From Desulforudis sp. (GTDB taxonomy: Bacteria; Bacillota; Desulfotomaculia; Desulfotomaculales; Desulforudaceae), in NCBI GenBank assembly GCA_003604975.1, contig QZIR01000036.1, positions 1 to 64,000 on the forward strand: DNA of 64,000 nucleotides, in the 5' to 3' direction. The translations under genes and the position numbers were made by a program. Below are positions 47,228 through 55,430 of this stretch, in pieces; within the stretch, counting starts at the first letter, position 1, and each line of letters opens with the position of its first letter. Under the pieces are notes generated by a model, which was not told the origin of the DNA, did no database searches, and worked only from the letters and a program-made list of their open reading frames with translations.

Positions 47228-47548
47228 CTATGTGGCAAGCAACTTGTTGAACTCCTCAACCGCTGACTCCAACTCCTGTTCCGACTGCGAATCACGCTCT
47301 AACTGCTGCATCCGGGCTCGGGATGAGAGATGGGGGTCGGTCTCCCACCAGTTAATGCCTATTTCCTTGGCTTTATCAACCGAGGCCACCAGCAGACGTA
47401 AGCGAATGGTTAAGAGATCAACCTCCGCCAGAGACACCTTGATGTCGCCTACGATCACCAGGCCTTTATCGAGCACACGCTCCAAGATTTCAGCCAGGTT
47501 AGTGGCATTGGTCGAATGTTTAATATCCGCCACAAACTCCCGCCTCAC
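47228..47548 (-). CDS. GvpA/GvpJ-family gas vesicle protein with charged C-terminal tail
   Basis: 106 residues. The core TNLAEILERVLDKGLVIVGDIKVSLAEVDLLTIRLRLLVASVDKAKEIGINWWETDP matches GvpA/J/M family proteins, minor shell components at the tips or during nucleation. The remaining 40 residues are a charged helix (RARMQQLERDSQSEQELESAVEEFNKLL) absent from GvpA. It starts at GTG 47548, or possibly the GTG at 47533. It is the last gene of the gas vesicle locus. Confidence 0.85.
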   Translation of the reverse strand: MRREFVADIKHSTNATNLAEILERVLDKGLVIVGDIKVSLAEVDLLTIRLRLLVASVDKAKEIGINWWETDPHLSSRARMQQLERDSQSEQELESAVEEFNKLLAT

Positions 47549-47638: not shown

Positions 47639-48034
47639 CTAACGGTTTACCGCCAGGTAAGCCTTTACGGCCTCGTCCCAGGCGTCAATCGTCTGTTGAT
47701 TTACGGTCTGCATCCCAGCCAGAAGGCTCTCAATCTCAGCCCGTGTGGATGCCCAGTCATCCGCCATCCTAGCCAGAAGGCTCTCAATCTCAGCCCGTGT
47801 GGATGCCCAGTCATCCGCAATCCTAGCCAGAAGGCTCTCAATCTCAGCCCGTGTGGATGCCCAGTCATCCGCCAGTTTTTGAGACCAATATTTGGCCGAT
47901 TCATTCAGATCGTAGGTGTTTTTGCGAATCAGGGCCTGGACTTCATTCGTTATTCTGCTGATATCGTCTAAGCGCAAACGGTAAGCGGTAGCCATCTCAT
48001 AACCTAGCTTCTGAAGATCTTCTGGTCTACCCAT
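47639..48034 (-). CDS. Helical-repeat protein of the gas vesicle cluster (GvpC-like candidate)
   Basis: 131 residues with no recognised family. Residues about 56-109 are three tandem copies of ADDWASTRAEIESLLARI/M, identical except for the last two positions. Eighteen residues equal five turns of an alpha helix, so each repeat repeats the same helix face, with W, I and L on one side and charges on the other. The flanks are also helical (RLRLDDISRITNEVQALI, QQTIDAWDEAVKAYLAV). Lying directly after gvpA, it resembles cyanobacterial GvpC in concept (a repeated amphipathic helix outside the shell), although GvpC repeats are 33 residues long. GGAGG precedes the ATG. Confidence 0.75.
   Translation of the reverse strand: MGRPEDLQKLGYEMATAYRLRLDDISRITNEVQALIRKNTYDLNESAKYWSQKLADDWASTRAEIESLLARIADDWASTRAEIESLLARMADDWASTRAEIESLLAGMQTVNQQTIDAWDEAVKAYLAVNR
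47711..47872. repeat. Three tandem 54-bp direct repeats in the helical-repeat gene
   Basis: Units start at 47711, 47765 and 47819. They are identical apart from one or two bases near the start of each unit. The length is a multiple of three, so copy number can change without frameshift. Near-identity at the DNA level, including third positions, points to recent duplication. Confidence 0.9.
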
Positions 48035-48075
48035 TCGGCAGCTTCCTCCTTATTCTCCCTTCCCCAGGGGAAATG

Positions 48076-48115
48076 GTGGTACAGGGAGCCCACCCGGAAG
48101 GACCCCCTGTACCAC
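48076..48115 (-). terminator. Stable hairpin directly downstream of gvpA
   Basis: GTGGTACAGGG at 48076-48086 pairs perfectly with CCCTGTACCAC at 48105-48115. On the minus strand it lies 5 bases after the gvpA stop and is followed by CATTTCCCC, with no T tract. It therefore looks more like an mRNA-protecting or partial-stop hairpin than a full terminator. That arrangement would let gvpA be made in excess over the distal genes. Confidence 0.65.
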
Positions 48116-48120
48116 TGCAA

Positions 48121-48339
48121 CTAGACTGTGGCCACGTTAACTGTTTTGGTAAGACTTACCGCGGTGGCGTACTTCAGCCAGGTTTCGACACTTGCAATGA
48201 CGATACGAGCTTCAATCGCCAGCAGCTCGATACCAACCAGCGAAATACGGACCCATGCGTCTATCACGATTCCTTTGTCTAAGATACGGTCAATAACTTC
48301 GGCTAGGCTGGACGTGTCAATGCTCTTGTTAATACTCAC
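48121..48339 (-). CDS. gvpA: Major gas vesicle structural protein GvpA
   Basis: 72 residues from GTG 48339, 8 bases after GGGGAG. The sequence [52 protein letters not shown] is nearly invariant among GvpA proteins and forms the ribbed shell that excludes water. The gene has its own promoter and an overlapping palindrome upstream, and a stable hairpin downstream, as expected for the most abundant product of the locus. Confidence 0.97.
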
Positions 48340-48365
48340 CCTTCTCACTCCCCAAATTAGGATTA

Positions 48366-48379
48366 AGAACGTACGTTCT
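48366..48379. promoter_or_regulatory. Palindrome AGAACGTACGTTCT at the gvpA start point (LexA-box form)
   Basis: A perfect 14-base palindrome that contains GAAC-N4-GTTC, the core of the Gram-positive LexA (DinR) box. It begins where transcription from the gvpA promoter should start (about 48379) and lies between the -10 box and the SD. A bound repressor would block gvpA. The regulator is inferred from the motif only. Confidence 0.55.
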
Positions 48380-48385
48380 ACACCC

Positions 48386-48414
48386 ATTATATGGCTCCAT
48401 CAGCAATGTGTTAC
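48386..48414 (-). promoter_or_regulatory. Promoter of gvpA
   Basis: On the minus strand GTAACA (48409-48414, 4 of 6 to the -35 consensus) and a perfect TATAAT (48386-48391) are separated by 17 bases. It lies in the 90-base gap between gvpK and gvpA, the only sizeable gap in the upstream part of the locus. Confidence 0.65.
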
Positions 48415-48429
48415 TACTGCCCTAAGTTT

Positions 48430-48768
48430 TTACAGCAAGTTCCCCAGGGGACCAAGATCAAGGTTGATGTTTTCCTTTTCTAACTCAAAAATCTCCCGCA
48501 GCTCATCCATTTTCTCATCCAGGCGCATCAGGGTTAAGCCCAGTTGTTCCTCCTGTTCGGCTGTTAGAACACCACGCTCAACACGTCTTAGAGCTTGACG
48601 CTCCATTAATTGACGGATTAGTTCAAGTAAGGTCAGGACCAGTTGAGCCAGACCCTTGTCTACCTCTTCACGTTCCACGTCCAAACGCTTTGCCGGGCGG
48701 CGTGCCTGCGTTTCCGCGAGCGGGGCCTCAAATTCGCCAGCATCAGCATTCAGGTATTGTATCTTCAT
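48430..48768 (-). CDS. gvpK: Gas vesicle protein GvpK
   Basis: 112 residues from ATG 48768, 8 bases after GAGGAGG. RLDVEREEVDKGLAQLVLTLLELIRQLMERQALRRVERGVLTAEQEEQLGLTLMRLDEKMDELREIF is typical of GvpK, a small helical accessory protein needed for vesicle formation. It follows a gvpF/L gene by 16 bases. Confidence 0.93.
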   Translation of the reverse strand: MKIQYLNADAGEFEAPLAETQARRPAKRLDVEREEVDKGLAQLVLTLLELIRQLMERQALRRVERGVLTAEQEEQLGLTLMRLDEKMDELREIFELEKENINLDLGPLGNLL

Positions 48769-48784
48769 AGTATGGTCCTCCTCT

Positions 48785-49498
48785 TCATTCCAGCACGAGG
48801 CTGACAAAACTGTAGGGCGGCCAGGGACCGCTGATCATATAGGCTATCCCTGGACGTTTCTTGGCGTGACTCCTAACTGTCAGTATGAACTCGCCAACCA
48901 ATGCTGTGGGCACCAGATAGGCAGCGTTGACCATCAAACCGGAAACCTGATCCAGCTTAACCTGCCGTTCCGCAAAACGTGGTTTTAGTACTTCTTCCAA
49001 TTCGCGGACAACATCCCCGGCGATCCGAACCCTGTCCATCGTTCCTGCGGTTATACGCAGTCGGTCCCTGAGAAACCGCCGTCCTGTACCGGACTCTGCG
49101 TGATCATCCGGTGTTTCCGTCCGGGAAACGGATGGTACCGTACCGGGTGTAGATCGGATCATGATGCGTACACCGATCTCCGCTTTGCCCTCCGTCCGGG
49201 CAAACTGGGACACAATACGGTCATAGTTTCGTTCCAACAGTTGCCCAATTTCGTTCTGATCACGGACAACAGTCCCGTATCGTACCGGCAGGACACTGCC
49301 GAACTGTTGGTACAGACGGTCGACAAGTTTACCATATAGTAAAACCCGTTTGATATCCGGCTGGGCAGCCAGACATGCTGTTAGGCTGGTGATGGCCGTA
49401 ACGTCTGCAAAGCTCTGAGCATCAAGATCAGTATCGTTCATAGATAGTGGTTCGGCTGACCGCATCAGGCAGATCAGAAATCTTCGGAATTGTTCCAT
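48785..49498 (-). CDS. Gas vesicle protein GvpF/GvpL family (third copy)
   Basis: 237 residues. Family features are VLPVRYGTVVRDQNEIGQLLERNYDRIVSQFARTEGKAEIGVRIMI in the middle and the C-terminal motif MISGPWPPYSFVSLVL. GvpF/L proteins bind GvpA and help nucleate vesicles. The N-terminus (FRRFLICLMRSAEPLSMND) differs from the other two copies. It overlaps the upstream gvpJ-like gene by 25 bases. Confidence 0.9.
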   Translation of the reverse strand: MEQFRRFLICLMRSAEPLSMNDTDLDAQSFADVTAITSLTACLAAQPDIKRVLLYGKLVDRLYQQFGSVLPVRYGTVVRDQNEIGQLLERNYDRIVSQFARTEGKAEIGVRIMIRSTPGTVPSVSRTETPDDHAESGTGRRFLRDRLRITAGTMDRVRIAGDVVRELEEVLKPRFAERQVKLDQVSGLMVNAAYLVPTALVGEFILTVRSHAKKRPGIAYMISGPWPPYSFVSLVLE

Positions 49499-49681: not shown

Positions 49682-50467
49682 CTACTCACTGTCCGCTGTG
49701 AAGTTATAGGGTGGCCAGGGACCGGAAAGCTCCAAGGCGATTCCTTTGATCGCCCCATCGAGCTGCCTGACAAGGTCGCAGAATGATTCCTGCGTCCCGG
49801 CCTCAACCAGGAATACGGCGTTTAACATCATGTCGTCCGTTCGACCGGTAGCCTCCCTGGACAGTACCTGGTTGGTGCGCCAGCGGACGGTCACCCTTTC
49901 CAGGGACTCCAGCACCTGTCGGGCATGATTCCGGGCCAGATCACGGGCCTTTTCGGACACGGAAAGCTGTGCCCGGCGCTGCATGATGTAGGCCCGACCC
50001 GGAGAACTGCCGACCGGTGTCACTGTATCCTGCGCCAGCACTACGCTCTTGATTCGTTCAAGGTCGGCATAGACCTTTACGCCCCATTCCTGCCGGTTAC
50101 AAAGCATCCTGAGCTGCCTGACGCACCGGTCGTAATCGGTCTCAAGCCTAATCCGGACGTTCTCCTCGTTATGGAAAACCAGTCCAAACTTCAATGGGAT
50201 CACGGTTGCTTCCCGGGTAATCAAGGACAGAATGGCGTTGTGTCGGGTGGCCTGTACGGTTAGCCAATCAACATCCCTAACCCTCTCCACCAAAGCGTCT
50301 TCCCCGAAATCTTTCTCTGGAACCGGTTTCACCACTCCGCTCAGATCCTGGGCACTGATCAGCATAAGGTCTGGCGGCAGATCGGCCAGCCGGCCGGGAT
50401 CACTCAGGATTGGAGCTAGTTCTTCGGACCAGCCAATACCGTAAAGGTAGTAAACCAAGCTACTCAC
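49682..50467 (-). CDS. gvpL: Gas vesicle protein GvpL/GvpF family (second copy)
   Basis: 261 residues beginning VYYLYGIGW, with VIPLKFGLVFHNEENVRIRLETDYDRCVRQLRMLCNRQEWGVKVY and the C-terminal LSGPWPPYNFTAD. It is the canonical two-domain GvpF/L protein and lies directly after gvpG, overlapping it by 8 bases. Confidence 0.93.
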   Translation of the reverse strand: MSSLVYYLYGIGWSEELAPILSDPGRLADLPPDLMLISAQDLSGVVKPVPEKDFGEDALVERVRDVDWLTVQATRHNAILSLITREATVIPLKFGLVFHNEENVRIRLETDYDRCVRQLRMLCNRQEWGVKVYADLERIKSVVLAQDTVTPVGSSPGRAYIMQRRAQLSVSEKARDLARNHARQVLESLERVTVRWRTNQVLSREATGRTDDMMLNAVFLVEAGTQESFCDLVRQLDGAIKGIALELSGPWPPYNFTADSE

Positions 50468-50714
50468 CCTCGTACTGTATATTCCGAGTCCTGGCTAACT
50501 CTAAGCGTTCCAGGAGAACGGCCTCAGTTTCCCGGAATTCTTCTTCGGTTAACTCTTCCATCTCGTAATACATCTCCAGGGCAGCCAGTTGTTCCATCAG
50601 ATGAGCCTCGTCATAGAGTTCCTGTTCCACCCGCTTGTGGATTTCTTGGAACAGCATTAACAACCCGCGAAAAGGAAGGGTCAGCAGATCATCCACCAAG
50701 AACACGGCATTCAC
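50460..50714 (-). CDS. gvpG: Gas vesicle protein GvpG
   Basis: 84 residues; VDDLLTLPFRGLLMLFQEIHKRVEQELYDEAHLMEQLAALEMYYEMEELTEEEFRETEAVLLERL matches GvpG, a short helical accessory protein. It overlaps both neighbouring gvpF/L genes by a few bases, the usual F-G-L arrangement. Confidence 0.93.
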   Translation of the reverse strand: MNAVFLVDDLLTLPFRGLLMLFQEIHKRVEQELYDEAHLMEQLAALEMYYEMEELTEEEFRETEAVLLERLELARTRNIQYEGE

Positions 50715-51493
50715 ATTCTCTCTTCCGGAGTTGCTGATAACCGTAAACGAACAAAGTTGTACGGCGGCCAGGGACCGGTGTATTTAAAGGTCAAAAGGTT
50801 TTCCACAGGACGGTATACCTCGTTAACCAGCAGATCGAAAGCGTTTTCCCGCTCTTTTTGGACCAGGAAGGAAGCGTTGAACACCATGCGTTCCATCAGA
50901 ATCTTGTTCACTACGGCCTTATCCGCTGCCTTAGCCAAGGGCTCGTAAATATGCTCCTGATAGTACTCACGTCTGGCGTCAGCCAGATGCGCCACTAATT
51001 CGCCCAGCTGTACCGTTAAATGATAAGACTGGGACTCATTCTTTATGGCCTGAATCTGAGTCTGCCACTCGGTTACGCGTGGATCAAGCTGAGCCATCTC
51101 CTTGACAAAGGATTGCTTGGTCCAAAAAACTTTCAGTCCTACTTCAATACAGTTTCGAACCTGTTCCAGCGCGGCAAAAATGTCCGTATAGTTCTCCCGG
51201 ACCAGGGATAATACTTCGTCCTCGGTACGGGCCAAAATACCGAAACGCATCGGGGCCACGTCGCTGTGCCGAAAAACAGCGGAAAGCGCCCGTTGGTGCT
51301 GTAGCATGCGGTCCTTGATAAAGGTACGCTCATCGATGAAGCTGTCACTTACCACTGCTGCGATATCCTGGAAGGGGAGTGTATATACTTGTGCCGGCGG
51401 GTTTCCAACACCGATACGTCCGTATTTCTCCCGTCCGCCAGCTGGTACAAATCCATAAAGGTACTTTCCATGTACCCGAGCCAGACTAATCAC
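50711..51493 (-). CDS. gvpF: Gas vesicle protein GvpF family (first copy)
   Basis: 260 residues from GTG 51493, which overlaps the end of the AAA ATPase gene; the upstream open frame is antisense-like and not family sequence. HGKYLYGFVPAG at the N-terminus, VAPMRFGILARTEDEVLSLVRENYTDIFAALEQVRNCIEVGLKVFW in the middle and the C-terminal YTGPWPPYNFVRLRL are typical. It is probably involved in nucleation and GvpA delivery. Confidence 0.92.
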   Translation of the reverse strand: MISLARVHGKYLYGFVPAGGREKYGRIGVGNPPAQVYTLPFQDIAAVVSDSFIDERTFIKDRMLQHQRALSAVFRHSDVAPMRFGILARTEDEVLSLVRENYTDIFAALEQVRNCIEVGLKVFWTKQSFVKEMAQLDPRVTEWQTQIQAIKNESQSYHLTVQLGELVAHLADARREYYQEHIYEPLAKAADKAVVNKILMERMVFNASFLVQKERENAFDLLVNEVYRPVENLLTFKYTGPWPPYNFVRLRLSATPEERM

Positions 51494-53504
51494 TTCTCTT
51501 CTGCATATGTTGTAAGGCGTCTGCAAGGTGCCGCCATCCCACTTCGGGCGCCGACCTTGCTCCAGGTTCTCTTCCGGACCGAACGACTTCCCGGATCGCG
51601 TTAAGGCCGGCCCGATGGCAAAGGTAGCGCAGATCAGCACCGGAAAAACCGATGGTCTCACGGGCCAGGTGTGCAATATCCACCGTTTCGGACAGCCGCA
51701 GTTTCCCAGCGTGAATCACCAGTATGGCCTTTCGGGCGTCCTCGTTTGGAAGCGGAAAGGCCAGATGCAGTTCCAGCCGCCCGCTACGCAGGAGCGCCTG
51801 GTCAATCAGGTCACGCCGGTTGGTGGCTCCGACCGGGATTACTCCCTGCAGCCCCTCGACACCATCCAGTTCAGTCAGCAACTGACTAAGTACCCTTTCC
51901 GAAACCGAGCTTCCGCCACCACTACGATTCCCTACCATGGCATCGATCTCATCGAAGAAAATGATACAGGGCGCCGACTGCCTGGCCTGCTTAAAGATCT
52001 TTCGCAGTTCACGCTCCGATTCACCGACCCACTTGGAAAGCAGGGCTGGCCCGTTGACCAGCAGGAAATTTGCACCCGCCTCGTTAGCCAGGGCACGCCC
52101 TGCCAAAGACTTACCCGTTCCCGGTGGACCGTAAAACAAGATTCCGCGTACGGGTTCGACACCCATTTCGTCAAAGAGGTCCTGGTGGCGCAGCGGCCAA
52201 ACCACGTTCTCCTCGAGTTGACGCTTTATCTCTTCGAGGCCTCCGATATCACTCCATCGGGTCTCGGGGATTTCCACGGCAAACTCACGTGTTGCAGAAG
52301 GTTCAATTTCGTTTAAGGCACGGATATAATGCGGCATCGCTACCGTAATCCGGGACAAATCTGTGTCCGTAGGGCGATCATTGCAGCGAGCCATCAGATC
52401 CCGCAGCGCATTCATCGCTGCTTCCCGGCACAGGGCCTGAATGTCTGCGCCTACGAAACCGTGTGTCACTTCCGCCAGATGGGGCAGGTCAACGTTATCC
52501 TCCAAGGGCATGCCCCTGGTGTGGATCTGCATGATCTCCAAACGACCGGAACGGTCGGGAACATTAATCATGATTTCCCGGTCAAACCGCCCCGGTCGCC
52601 GCAGGGCAGGATCGAGCATGTTAGGCAGATTGGTAGCGGCGACCACGACAACACGCCCCCGCGGTTGCAGGCCGTCCATCAACGAGAGCAACTGGGCGAC
52701 CACCCGTTTTTCCACATCACCCTTAACCTCATCCCGTTTAGGGGCGATGGCGTCCACCTCGTCGAGAAAGATAATGCTTGGCGGGCGGGCCGCAGCCTTT
52801 TCAAAGATTTCACGTAGTCGGGCCTCGCTCTCCCCGTAATACTTGTGGATGATTTCCGGCCCGTTAACGGTGATGAACTGGGCATCGGTCTCGCCCGCTA
52901 CGGCCCTGGCAATCAGTGTCTTCCCTGTTCCGGGCGGTCCGTACATCAGAATGCCCTTGGGCGGGTCAATACCTAGCCGGTGAAACACCTCCGGATAGCG
53001 GAGAGGTAACTCAATGATCTCCCTGATTCTGGTCAGTTGCTTGCCAAGGCCGCCGACATCCTCGTAGGTGGTCCGGCTCTGTTCACCACGCTGGGAACGG
53101 TTGCTGTACTTCACACTGGTTTCTTTGCTGACAATGACCGTACCGTCGGGGTTTGTTTGCTGTACCAGGAATTCGCGCTGACTGGAGCCAAAAAGGTTCA
53201 ACCTTACCCGGTCTCCGGCGACAAGCGGCAACCCTTCAAGCAACCCCCCGTAGTTTTGGATCGCCGACTGCTTTTCTTCCCCCTCCAGGGTTGCCAGAGT
53301 GACCGTCCGGGCCGGCCTGGACTCCGCCCGGCGTACAACAACTGAATCACCAAGACTAGCCTGCGCATTGAGCCGGATAATCCCATCGATCTCAATAGTC
53401 TGCTGGCCACGGTGCTCCATCAAGGCTGGCATAACCCTAGCCACCGTCAACCTCTTCCCATGGATCTCTACGATTTCGCCTACGGCCAAGCCCAGTCGTG
53501 CCAT
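51486..53504 (-). CDS. CDC48/p97-type double AAA+ ATPase in the gas vesicle locus
   Basis: At least 672 residues: CDC48-type N domain ([23 protein letters not shown]), then AAA domains D1 ([18 protein letters not shown]; Walker [13 protein letters not shown]) and D2 ([28 protein letters not shown]), both with arginine-finger regions, and a C-terminal helical lid. Homology continues upstream of the ATG at 53504 (RVAEGRSDDVGRGVARLDPAD, in frame), but that stretch has no ATG, GTG or TTG; CTG 53570 or ATA 53597 are the only options. The family unfolds or extracts proteins with ATP. Embedded between hsp20 and gvpF with overlaps, it is probably an assembly or disassembly machine for GvpA. Confidence 0.9.
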
Positions 53505-53617: not shown

Positions 53618-54121
53618 CTAAGCGCCGATTTCTTTGTCCAGCAGTACTTCGAGTACTCCGTTACGCATCGCAAGCGCCCCTATTTGGGCCTTGACCCTTG
53701 CGGGTAACAACAATTCCTTGTAATACTGCCGTTCTCCAGTAGTGGACAGTTTTAAAATGTCACCCTCGACCACAACCTGAACATTTTCTTCCGAAACCCC
53801 TGGTAGTTCAGCAACAAGGCGTAACTGCTGACCCTCGTCAAACAGTTCGCATACCGGTTCGCTGCAGTGTTCAACGTCAAAAGAAACCTTTTCCGGTTCG
53901 ACTTCTACAAAGGCCTGGGTCTCGTCCCGGTTAGCGCCAATGCGCATGGTAAAGCCATACATACCACGGACTTTATCATCGGAAGACCGGATCTCACCCT
54001 GGCGTGAAACCGTTGACTGGCCACGATCCATCATATCCTGCAGGGTACTGACAAGATCGAAAAGCGGGCCCAAGAGACCGCTCCGCCCCCCTTTGTCGCT
54101 GCCAGAACGCTTATCCCTCAA
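53618..54121 (-). CDS. Hsp20/alpha-crystallin-like protein (GvpH-like)
   Basis: 167 residues with an N-terminal polar segment (GLLGPLFDLVSTLQDMMDRG) and a C-terminal alpha-crystallin domain (PVCELFDEGQQLRLVAELPGVSEENVQVVVEGDILKLSTTGERQYYKELLLPARV...NGVLEVLL). Small heat-shock proteins of this kind occur in archaeal gvp loci as GvpH. It probably keeps GvpA or other shell proteins soluble. It overlaps gvpN by 11 bases. Confidence 0.87.
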   Translation of the reverse strand: MRDKRSGSDKGGRSGLLGPLFDLVSTLQDMMDRGQSTVSRQGEIRSSDDKVRGMYGFTMRIGANRDETQAFVEVEPEKVSFDVEHCSEPVCELFDEGQQLRLVAELPGVSEENVQVVVEGDILKLSTTGERQYYKELLLPARVKAQIGALAMRNGVLEVLLDKEIGA

Positions 54122-55052
54122 GTGTCCTCCCCTCCCCGGCGAAGAACTGTTCCATTACGTTCCCCAGGATTTCCAGGGCCTTGGCATGCATCCGGTCGCT
54201 ATTGCGTAAGGCAATTAACTCAGCATTCAAAACGTCCCGGCAAATGTCTTTGAGTAACGGGTTCTTAATTTCTAAAGGAATCTCAAGCTGTTCGGTCAGG
54301 GTGGCCAGACGGATTGCTGCTCTGACCGTAGGGTTCAGCTTTAGATTTGATTCAGTGCGTAAGGCACGGATCATATCGACAATGGTGGTTGCCTTCGATT
54401 CGGCGGCACCCGATTTGCACATCGTGATTTCGATCTCGGTAGACCGGTCCAATTCACCCAGATCGACGGTGATCATCCGTTCTATTAGGGCATCCTGGGT
54501 ACGATGGACACCGATATACTCCGCAGGGTTTGAGGTAAAGATGACCCTGAATTCCGGATGCACTTTCAGGTATTTTCCATCATTGTGCACACCCTGCAGG
54601 TTGACCACACCTTCCCCCAGGATGGAAAGGAGCACGTTGTTGGTCTCAGGCCGACTTCGGTTAAACTCGTCGTAGATCAAGGTGTAGCCCATCCGACAGG
54701 CTGTAGTCATGCGGCCTTCAAACCAGATGGCCTGAACCTCTTCTTCTTTCTTCAATACCGAGTGTATGAAGTTGTCGATCAACAACCGACGTTTGAAGCC
54801 AAAATTACCACCAATCAGATCCGAGGGAAAAAACTCATCGTTGCCGTTAATCAAAACAACCGGCCGGCCGATTGCGGCGGCCAGGATAAACGCCATGGTC
54901 GTTTTGCCAACGCCGGATGGCCCGCTAAAATGCACCGGATAACCCGCGTTAAGGTAGGCCAGTGCTCGCCTACGAATGTCTTCCAGGTAGGGTGTGGTTA
55001 CCATACTAGCCAGTCGATCAGGAGACAATTCAAAGATCACGGTGTTTGTCAT
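54111..55052 (-). CDS. gvpN: Gas vesicle protein GvpN (AAA+ ATPase, MoxR-like)
   Basis: 313 residues from ATG 55052. Walker A HFSGPSGVGKTTMAFILA, Walker B YTLIYDEFNRSRPETNNVLLSILGEGVV, and sensor region FRVIFTSNPAEYIGVHRTQDALIERMITVDL are characteristic of GvpN. The ATPase promotes growth of vesicles from bicones to full size. GGAG lies 11 bases before the start. Confidence 0.95.
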   Translation of the reverse strand: MTNTVIFELSPDRLASMVTTPYLEDIRRRALAYLNAGYPVHFSGPSGVGKTTMAFILAAAIGRPVVLINGNDEFFPSDLIGGNFGFKRRLLIDNFIHSVLKKEEEVQAIWFEGRMTTACRMGYTLIYDEFNRSRPETNNVLLSILGEGVVNLQGVHNDGKYLKVHPEFRVIFTSNPAEYIGVHRTQDALIERMITVDLGELDRSTEIEITMCKSGAAESKATTIVDMIRALRTESNLKLNPTVRAAIRLATLTEQLEIPLEIKNPLLKDICRDVLNAELIALRNSDRMHAKALEILGNVMEQFFAGEGRTLEG

Positions 55053-55082
55053 TACTCTAATCACTCCAGACAGATATACGTT

Positions 55083-55346
55083 TTACCCCTTGGAGCCAAA
55101 ATCGTCGCGTTCGCGCATATCAATGCGGTCGAAACCCAAAATGTTCAATAATCGGTCAAGCCGTACCTCATACAGGGCTACAACATCATCTTTAGCCCTC
55201 TCACGCAAGTATTCTATGTCTTCTATCACCTCCGCCCTTACATTCCAACCATCTTCAGTGGGAACTACAGCGATCACCGAGGTGTCCTTATTCAGGACAA
55301 CCCTGAAGAAGTCCTCCGTTGCCCGTACTACGTCAACCACACCCAT
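55083..55346 (-). CDS. gvpO: Gas vesicle protein GvpO
   Basis: 87 residues from ATG 55346, 8 bases after GGGGAGG. GWNVRAEVIEDIEYLRERAKDDVVALYEVRLD is typical of GvpO. It is the first gene of the locus. The promoter must lie in about 85 bases between this start and the MFS gene terminator; TAGACT and CATAAC elements are possible but weak. Confidence 0.92.
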   Translation of the reverse strand: MGVVDVVRATEDFFRVVLNKDTSVIAVVPTEDGWNVRAEVIEDIEYLRERAKDDVVALYEVRLDRLLNILGFDRIDMRERDDFGSKG

Positions 55347-55430
55347 TCCCCGCACCTCCCCAGGACATGTTATGATCCATGATTTTGTATAGTCTATGAG
55401 TAAGGCATTTGGATGGTGCGCCAGAAAGAC

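Follow-up and report, generated by a model that had tools for sequence, protein, structure and literature searches.

What does the protein encoded directly after gvpA in a Desulforudis gas vesicle cluster do, and is it a counterpart of the rod protein GvpC, which makes gas vesicles stiffer? The gene, here called X, lies at 47639..48034 on the minus strand of the window, the 64-kb stretch of DNA that we analysed; the plus-strand reading of this interval contains stop codons. Its ORF starts with ATG, encodes 131 residues, and is preceded 10 nt 5' of the start codon by a Shine-Dalgarno sequence read from the DNA, GGAGG (48045..48049, minus).

The gas vesicle cluster around X

All genes of the cluster are on the minus strand and run from 55355 to 47228. 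In order, they are gvpO (55083..55355; PF05800), gvpN (54111..55064; TIGR02640, 318 bits), an hsp20/gvpH gene (53618..54121; Pfam and NCBIfam profiles), a CDC48-like two-domain AAA ATPase gene (51486..53504; assigned from sequence, with homologues in most related clusters), gvpF/L (50711..51676; PF06386), gvpG (50460..50714; PF05120), two further gvpF/L genes (49682..50467 and 48785..49498; both PF06386), gvpK (48430..48807; PF05121), gvpA (48121..48387), X, and a gvpA/J-type minor shell gene (47228..47548; PF00741, best NCBIfam match GvpJ). The listed TTG start of the first gvpF/L frame overlaps the ATPase gene, and its true start probably lies downstream.

The gene directly upstream of X in transcription order encodes the major rib protein, as judged from Pfam and NCBIfam profiles (NF006874 at 121 bits, above cut-off), which upholds the placement of a repeat protein right after gvpA in a preliminary description of this DNA. 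As proposed there, this position makes a structural role likely. The GvpA of the window carries Thr (YATAV) where nearly all others carry the Glu59-equivalent residue. A promoter-like site before gvpA, GTAACA-17-TATAAT (48386..48414, minus), is weak, and the scan gave no excess over chance.

Folding of the sequence between the gvpA stop codon and X yielded a hairpin with a 14-bp stem and an 8-nt loop (48078..48113, minus) that starts 8 nt past the gvpA ORF. Hairpins of unrelated sequence occupy the same spot in nearly all related loci (mean z of -3.7, n = 23 loci), with a weak signal in two Halobacterium loci and in locus L028. Since a stem-loop at the gvpA/gvpC junction of Halobacterium stabilises gvpA mRNA (PMC4390858), the gvpA-X hairpin is, by analogy, a probable mRNA stabiliser or attenuator. 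Such an element would allow gvpA to be produced far more abundantly than X.

An 18-residue unit in three copies

Residues 55-108 of X comprise three 18-residue units, delimited by a tandem-repeat scan and by comparison of the copies: ADDWASTRAEIESLLARI (residues 55-72; 47819..47872, minus), ADDWASTRAEIESLLARM (residues 73-90; 47765..47818, minus), and ADDWASTRAEIESLLAGM (residues 91-108; 47711..47764, minus). They read ADDWASTRAEIESLLAR[I/M] twice and then ...LLAGM, with copy 2 ending in ...LLARM. The underlying array has a period of 54 bp, 3.0 copies, 97% matches, and a score of 314; no other tandem array was found in the window. The three near-identical repeats reported earlier are therefore real as read: pairwise, the copies differ at 1, 1, and 2 of 54 nt, and every difference is nonsynonymous. 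Given that copies 1-2 nt apart have no synonymous differences, the triplet indicates a recent, local, in-frame expansion of DNA. Self-similarity of X at an offset of 18 reaches z = 11.5 against shuffles and falls to z = 3.3 when one unit is left.

The copy number could itself be an assembly error. We consider it unlikely that the true gene has one or two units and that the triplication reflects misassembly or transient, functionless slippage, although the copies are near-identical across 162 bp (about one short-read length), the assembly is a draft genome of 75 contigs, and no other species examined has a comparable expansion. The triplication nonetheless preserves the reading frame, its copies can be told apart by their sequence changes, and 3' of the units the sequence returns exactly to the family register (Trp).

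A gvpA-linked family and its probable relation to GvpC

Profile and sequence searches placed X in no Pfam or NCBIfam family and found none for it in the PDB, which gave weak helical matches only. Pfam matches to T6SS, apolipoprotein, and ZapB families were rejected as composition matches below cut-off. Relatives from single-protein searches were likewise rejected, these searches having returned none or unrelated proteins (L003 resembles a chemotaxis receptor), and no relatives emerged when viral contigs were scanned with X, with Nostoc GvpC, or with a Pelotomaculum-type alignment.

Of 113 genomes of the class, 21 carry gvpA. We read the other 20 gvpA loci, and in all 20 a charged ORF, predicted from sequence to be helical, directly follows gvpA. 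An HMM built without X placed post-gvpA ORFs from 19 of 20 related loci at ranks 1-19 of 1178 ORFs (E <= 1e-6, next 0.11); six of these 19 were absent from its training set. The same HMM scores X at 41.7 bits, and the family HMM recognises the post-gvpA gene in 20 of the 21 gvpA-positive genomes (Pelotomaculum relatives). When two of its three units were taken out, X aligned end to end, without gaps and in one register, with ten relatives (scores 31-62; means of the shuffle null maxima -3 to -10, sd 8-9). Its hydrophobic pairs fall at residues 35, 53, and 68, as in the relatives, and then at 86 and 104. By these comparisons, X is a member of a gvpA-linked family that lacks a Pfam or NCBIfam model. 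The earlier view of a new protein outside the known Gvp families holds as far as those models go, but X does not stand alone, and its family profile detects an annotated cyanobacterial GvpC.

Beyond the class, an earlier profile found four further members. Two of them are located between gvpA and gvpO/gvpN, and a third directly precedes gvpN in Thermacetogenium phaeum. The fourth, at L071:7567-7800 (G478), is a truncated remnant with no gvp genes in the 15 kb read and perhaps derives from a decayed cluster. A scan of genome contigs with a three-member subset alignment matched two Pelotomaculum MAGs. Longer charged proteins occupy the post-gvpA slot at L030:8499-9944 (481 aa), L031:8241-8975 (244 aa, with a His-rich C-terminal tail), and L028:7642-8190 (182 aa). 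The L030 and L031 proteins score near 1e-6 with the family HMM; the L028 protein is not matched and was rejected as a member (E 0.11).

Other features recur near gvpA in these loci. A small conserved protein (core SPVVVFPDNIAGGSFIPGT...WKPV.PFVAGDQVFIPI) is encoded once or twice directly upstream of gvpA at L036:9010-9746, L039:8765-9435, L040:8905-9336, and L041:7209-7906; the L041 copies have no Pfam family. A second conserved protein (HCPGSG...SIFSFS..GNYYWIV...HISPDWIRTY) lies directly upstream of gvpA at L032:7616-7975, L043:793-1149, L045:8340-8696, and L046:7700-8227, and its L045 copy has no Pfam family. GvpA proteins with His-rich C-terminal tails (e.g. VHHHHHERVPLTA) are encoded at L040:8381-8614, L041:8076-8306, L043:1292-1510, and L046:8374-8592.

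Members of the family are mostly 73-138 aa long. Their self-similarity, computed without full X, peaks at offsets of 18 (z 12.6) and 33 (z 7.2). Because an offset of 18 is somewhat favoured by any amphipathic helix of 3.6 residues per turn, indels between members are the stronger sign of period. Members differ by exactly +33, -33, -15, and 2x18 residues, which implies a family unit of 33 = 18 + 15. X retains one step of 33 (35 to 68), after which its spacing is 18, with repeats running 18-18-18. The 18-residue period claimed earlier is present in X, but the ancestral period of the family is 33 (18+15), as in GvpC. The identical 18-mers arose when one half-unit was recently expanded, and they are not what defines the family's design.

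The 33-residue period of the family is one of several likenesses to the GvpC of cyanobacteria (PF01304; Anabaena flos-aquae, Nostoc sphaeroides), which is also an all-helical rod with similar residues on its hydrophobic face and is encoded after gvpA and before gvpN. The order is gvpA-X-gvpO-gvpN in 16 related loci and gvpA-gvpC-gvpN or gvpA-gvpC-gvpN-gvpO in gvpC loci; in the window, the gene next after X is the gvpJ-type gene, and gvpN and gvpO lie at the opposite end of the cluster. The motif [FL]L-x6-R occurs every 33 residues in cyanobacterial GvpC and, in register, 33 residues apart in the family, many of whose members have a further copy at +18. When 746 ORFs of 12 gvp loci were searched with the family HMM built without X, annotated Nostoc GvpC (WP_118171794.1) was detected at E 2.7e-8, and proteins or frames from the gvpA-gvpN slot of Methylocella, Methylosinus, and Octadecabacter at E 6.5e-7 to 7.8e-6 (next 1.2). 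Neither class-preserving column permutations (0/500) nor pattern-preserving shuffles (0/500) reached the Nostoc and Methylocella scores, these controls having kept hydrophobic class or pattern, composition, and repeat structure. Cyanobacterial GvpC was represented by two sequences, the Nostoc protein (from a plasmid record) and an Anabaena sequence checked by its match to PF01304. The latter gave a weaker score (13.3 bits) that 9 of 500 controls reached. Reciprocally, a two-repeat GvpC profile placed family members in 10 of the top 11 positions, as did none of 60 permuted profiles.

On these sequence grounds, remote homology of the family and GvpC is likely, though not proven. We regard as rather improbable the alternative that the family is unrelated and its likeness convergent, one that would be shown by any amphipathic helix with this charge and composition. 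Low-complexity helices do yield many weak Pfam matches, PF01304 (the GvpC repeat) fails to recognise the post-gvpA gene in any of the 21 genomes, X included, a reversed GvpC profile still places 4 of 11, and hhalign of family against GvpC, although in the right register (p = 0.02), gives a probability of 2%. Convergence is nevertheless hard to reconcile with controls that preserve hydrophobic pattern, composition, and repetition without reproducing the scores, or with the same genomic slot across phyla, and it would in any case leave a GvpC-like function intact. X itself was unreported by repeat-only and dimer GvpC profiles.

Other GvpC-slot proteins show a similar mixture of likeness and difference. 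The Methylocella, Methylosinus, and Octadecabacter plasmid proteins match the family HMM, and the top self-similarity offsets in Methylocella are 33 and 18, but they are 168-247 aa as annotated, are labelled hypothetical, and in Methylocella and Methylosinus have tails rich in Ala, Ser, and Arg. The alphaproteobacterial slot frames lie at L077:3791-4534, L078:3578-4522, and L079:3803-4630; the L078 (Methylosinus) match is to a frame that exceeds the annotated CDS in length, and at L079 (Octadecabacter) the matching frame is unannotated. Haloarchaeal GvpC shares the slot, the stem-loop after gvpA, and variable helical repeats, but differs in having repeats of 32-40 aa and an acidic tail that includes a zinc-finger domain (PMC9501494); the family profile misses it (E 1.3 and 16; 746 ORFs, 12 loci). 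In Thermacetogenium phaeum, a family member (L052/L074; E 2.1e-20) directly precedes gvpN, but gvpA is not directly upstream of it and it shows no repeat expansion. The genome paper names a GvpC in that gas vesicle operon (PMC3551663), a candidate that may be the same gene, so the idea of a GvpC in this lineage is not wholly new.

Proposed role of X and its geometry

AlphaFold2 predicts X as one unbroken helix (residues 4-129, mean pLDDT 96.7). Its hydrophobic moment is best at 3.60 residues per turn (0.36 vs 0.17 +- 0.03 shuffled), and the hydrophobic face stays within 225-291 degrees in 7/7 18-mers. The straight amphipathic rod of constant face proposed in the preliminary description is thereby supported, as is its suggestion of GvpC-like logic.

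In the Anabaena GvpC repeat, L4, F11, L12, R19, L30, and F33 are conserved, and mutating the F, L, or R sets abolishes stabilisation (Huber et al., PMC9994262). The equivalents of F11, L12, and L30 are hydrophobic in nearly all family members, and that of R19 (position 43) is Arg in 14 of 16 and Lys in one; no family residue corresponds to F33. X keeps the hydrophobic binding positions, with I28, L35, I36, and L54 at the equivalents of L4, F11, L12, and L30, and has lost the Arg19 equivalents (Leu43, Trp76). Since neither a PF01304 match nor Arg19 was found, we file X as a distant GvpC-like relative, not as a canonical GvpC.

Given that the key GvpC positions are kept in the family and that X is predicted to be one amphipathic helix, X would form a rod along the rib, and we think it quite probable that X is a divergent GvpC-like stiffener of this kind. 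Family membership, alignment register, the single helix, GvpC profile similarity, and the conserved hairpin were computed; surface binding, stiffening, and stoichiometry we infer. X would run along the outside of the GvpA ribs, its hydrophobic face turned towards the alpha2 helices, and would stiffen the gas vesicle. The 18- and 15-residue halves of the family unit would each present a hydrophobic pair to about two GvpA monomers, and the in-frame triplication would have lengthened the rod by 36 residues while keeping the wetting face constant. In Anabaena, 33 residues of GvpC (49.5 Å) span about four GvpA monomers (50.8 Å), and GvpA spacing in an 87-nm vesicle is 12.1 Å inside and 12.7 Å at the GvpC site (PMC9994262). 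Eighteen residues measure 27 Å, which is no whole multiple of a spacing of ~12.7 Å and counts against a rod along the rib.

It is quite improbable that X is instead an assembly factor, a helical adaptor holding GvpA or bridging GvpN and GvpO during growth. In favour of this reading, X-type genes adjoin gvpO and gvpN in the 16 loci, split-GFP shows contacts of Halobacterium GvpC itself with many accessory Gvps (PMC9501494), and X is without the Arg through which Anabaena GvpC binds the rib. A filamentous shell binder nevertheless accords better with indels in half-repeat multiples, an uninterrupted rod, retention by the family of the face positions that bind GvpA, and a hairpin that would favour gvpA excess.

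Within the stiffener reading, a further proposal, for which we see a small chance, is that X represents a naturally re-gauged GvpC rod, with the 18-residue half repeated in place of the 33-residue whole. Eighteen residues at 100 degrees each would make five full turns and keep the face constant, whereas 33 residues would turn it by 60 degrees. An 18-mer would span two GvpA monomers only if these were ~13.5 Å apart, which, from published spacings, would correspond to an estimated vesicle width near 37 nm (PMC9994262). If this were true, the number and type of half-repeats would tune vesicle width in the lineage, and the loss of Arg19 in X together with that of Glu59 in its GvpA would be a matched change. 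X would offer a natural test of whether such rods need axial register with GvpA or a constant face alone.

No control on the strength of gas vesicles is better characterised than GvpC, which is also a main engineering handle for acoustic reporters, and to our knowledge its known profiles cover few lineages. Comparison of the family with GvpC brings out the positions common to both. With its short members and its half-repeat of 18+15, an unprofiled GvpC-like family of anaerobes related to Pelotomaculum would add a new group to those that have the second shell protein.
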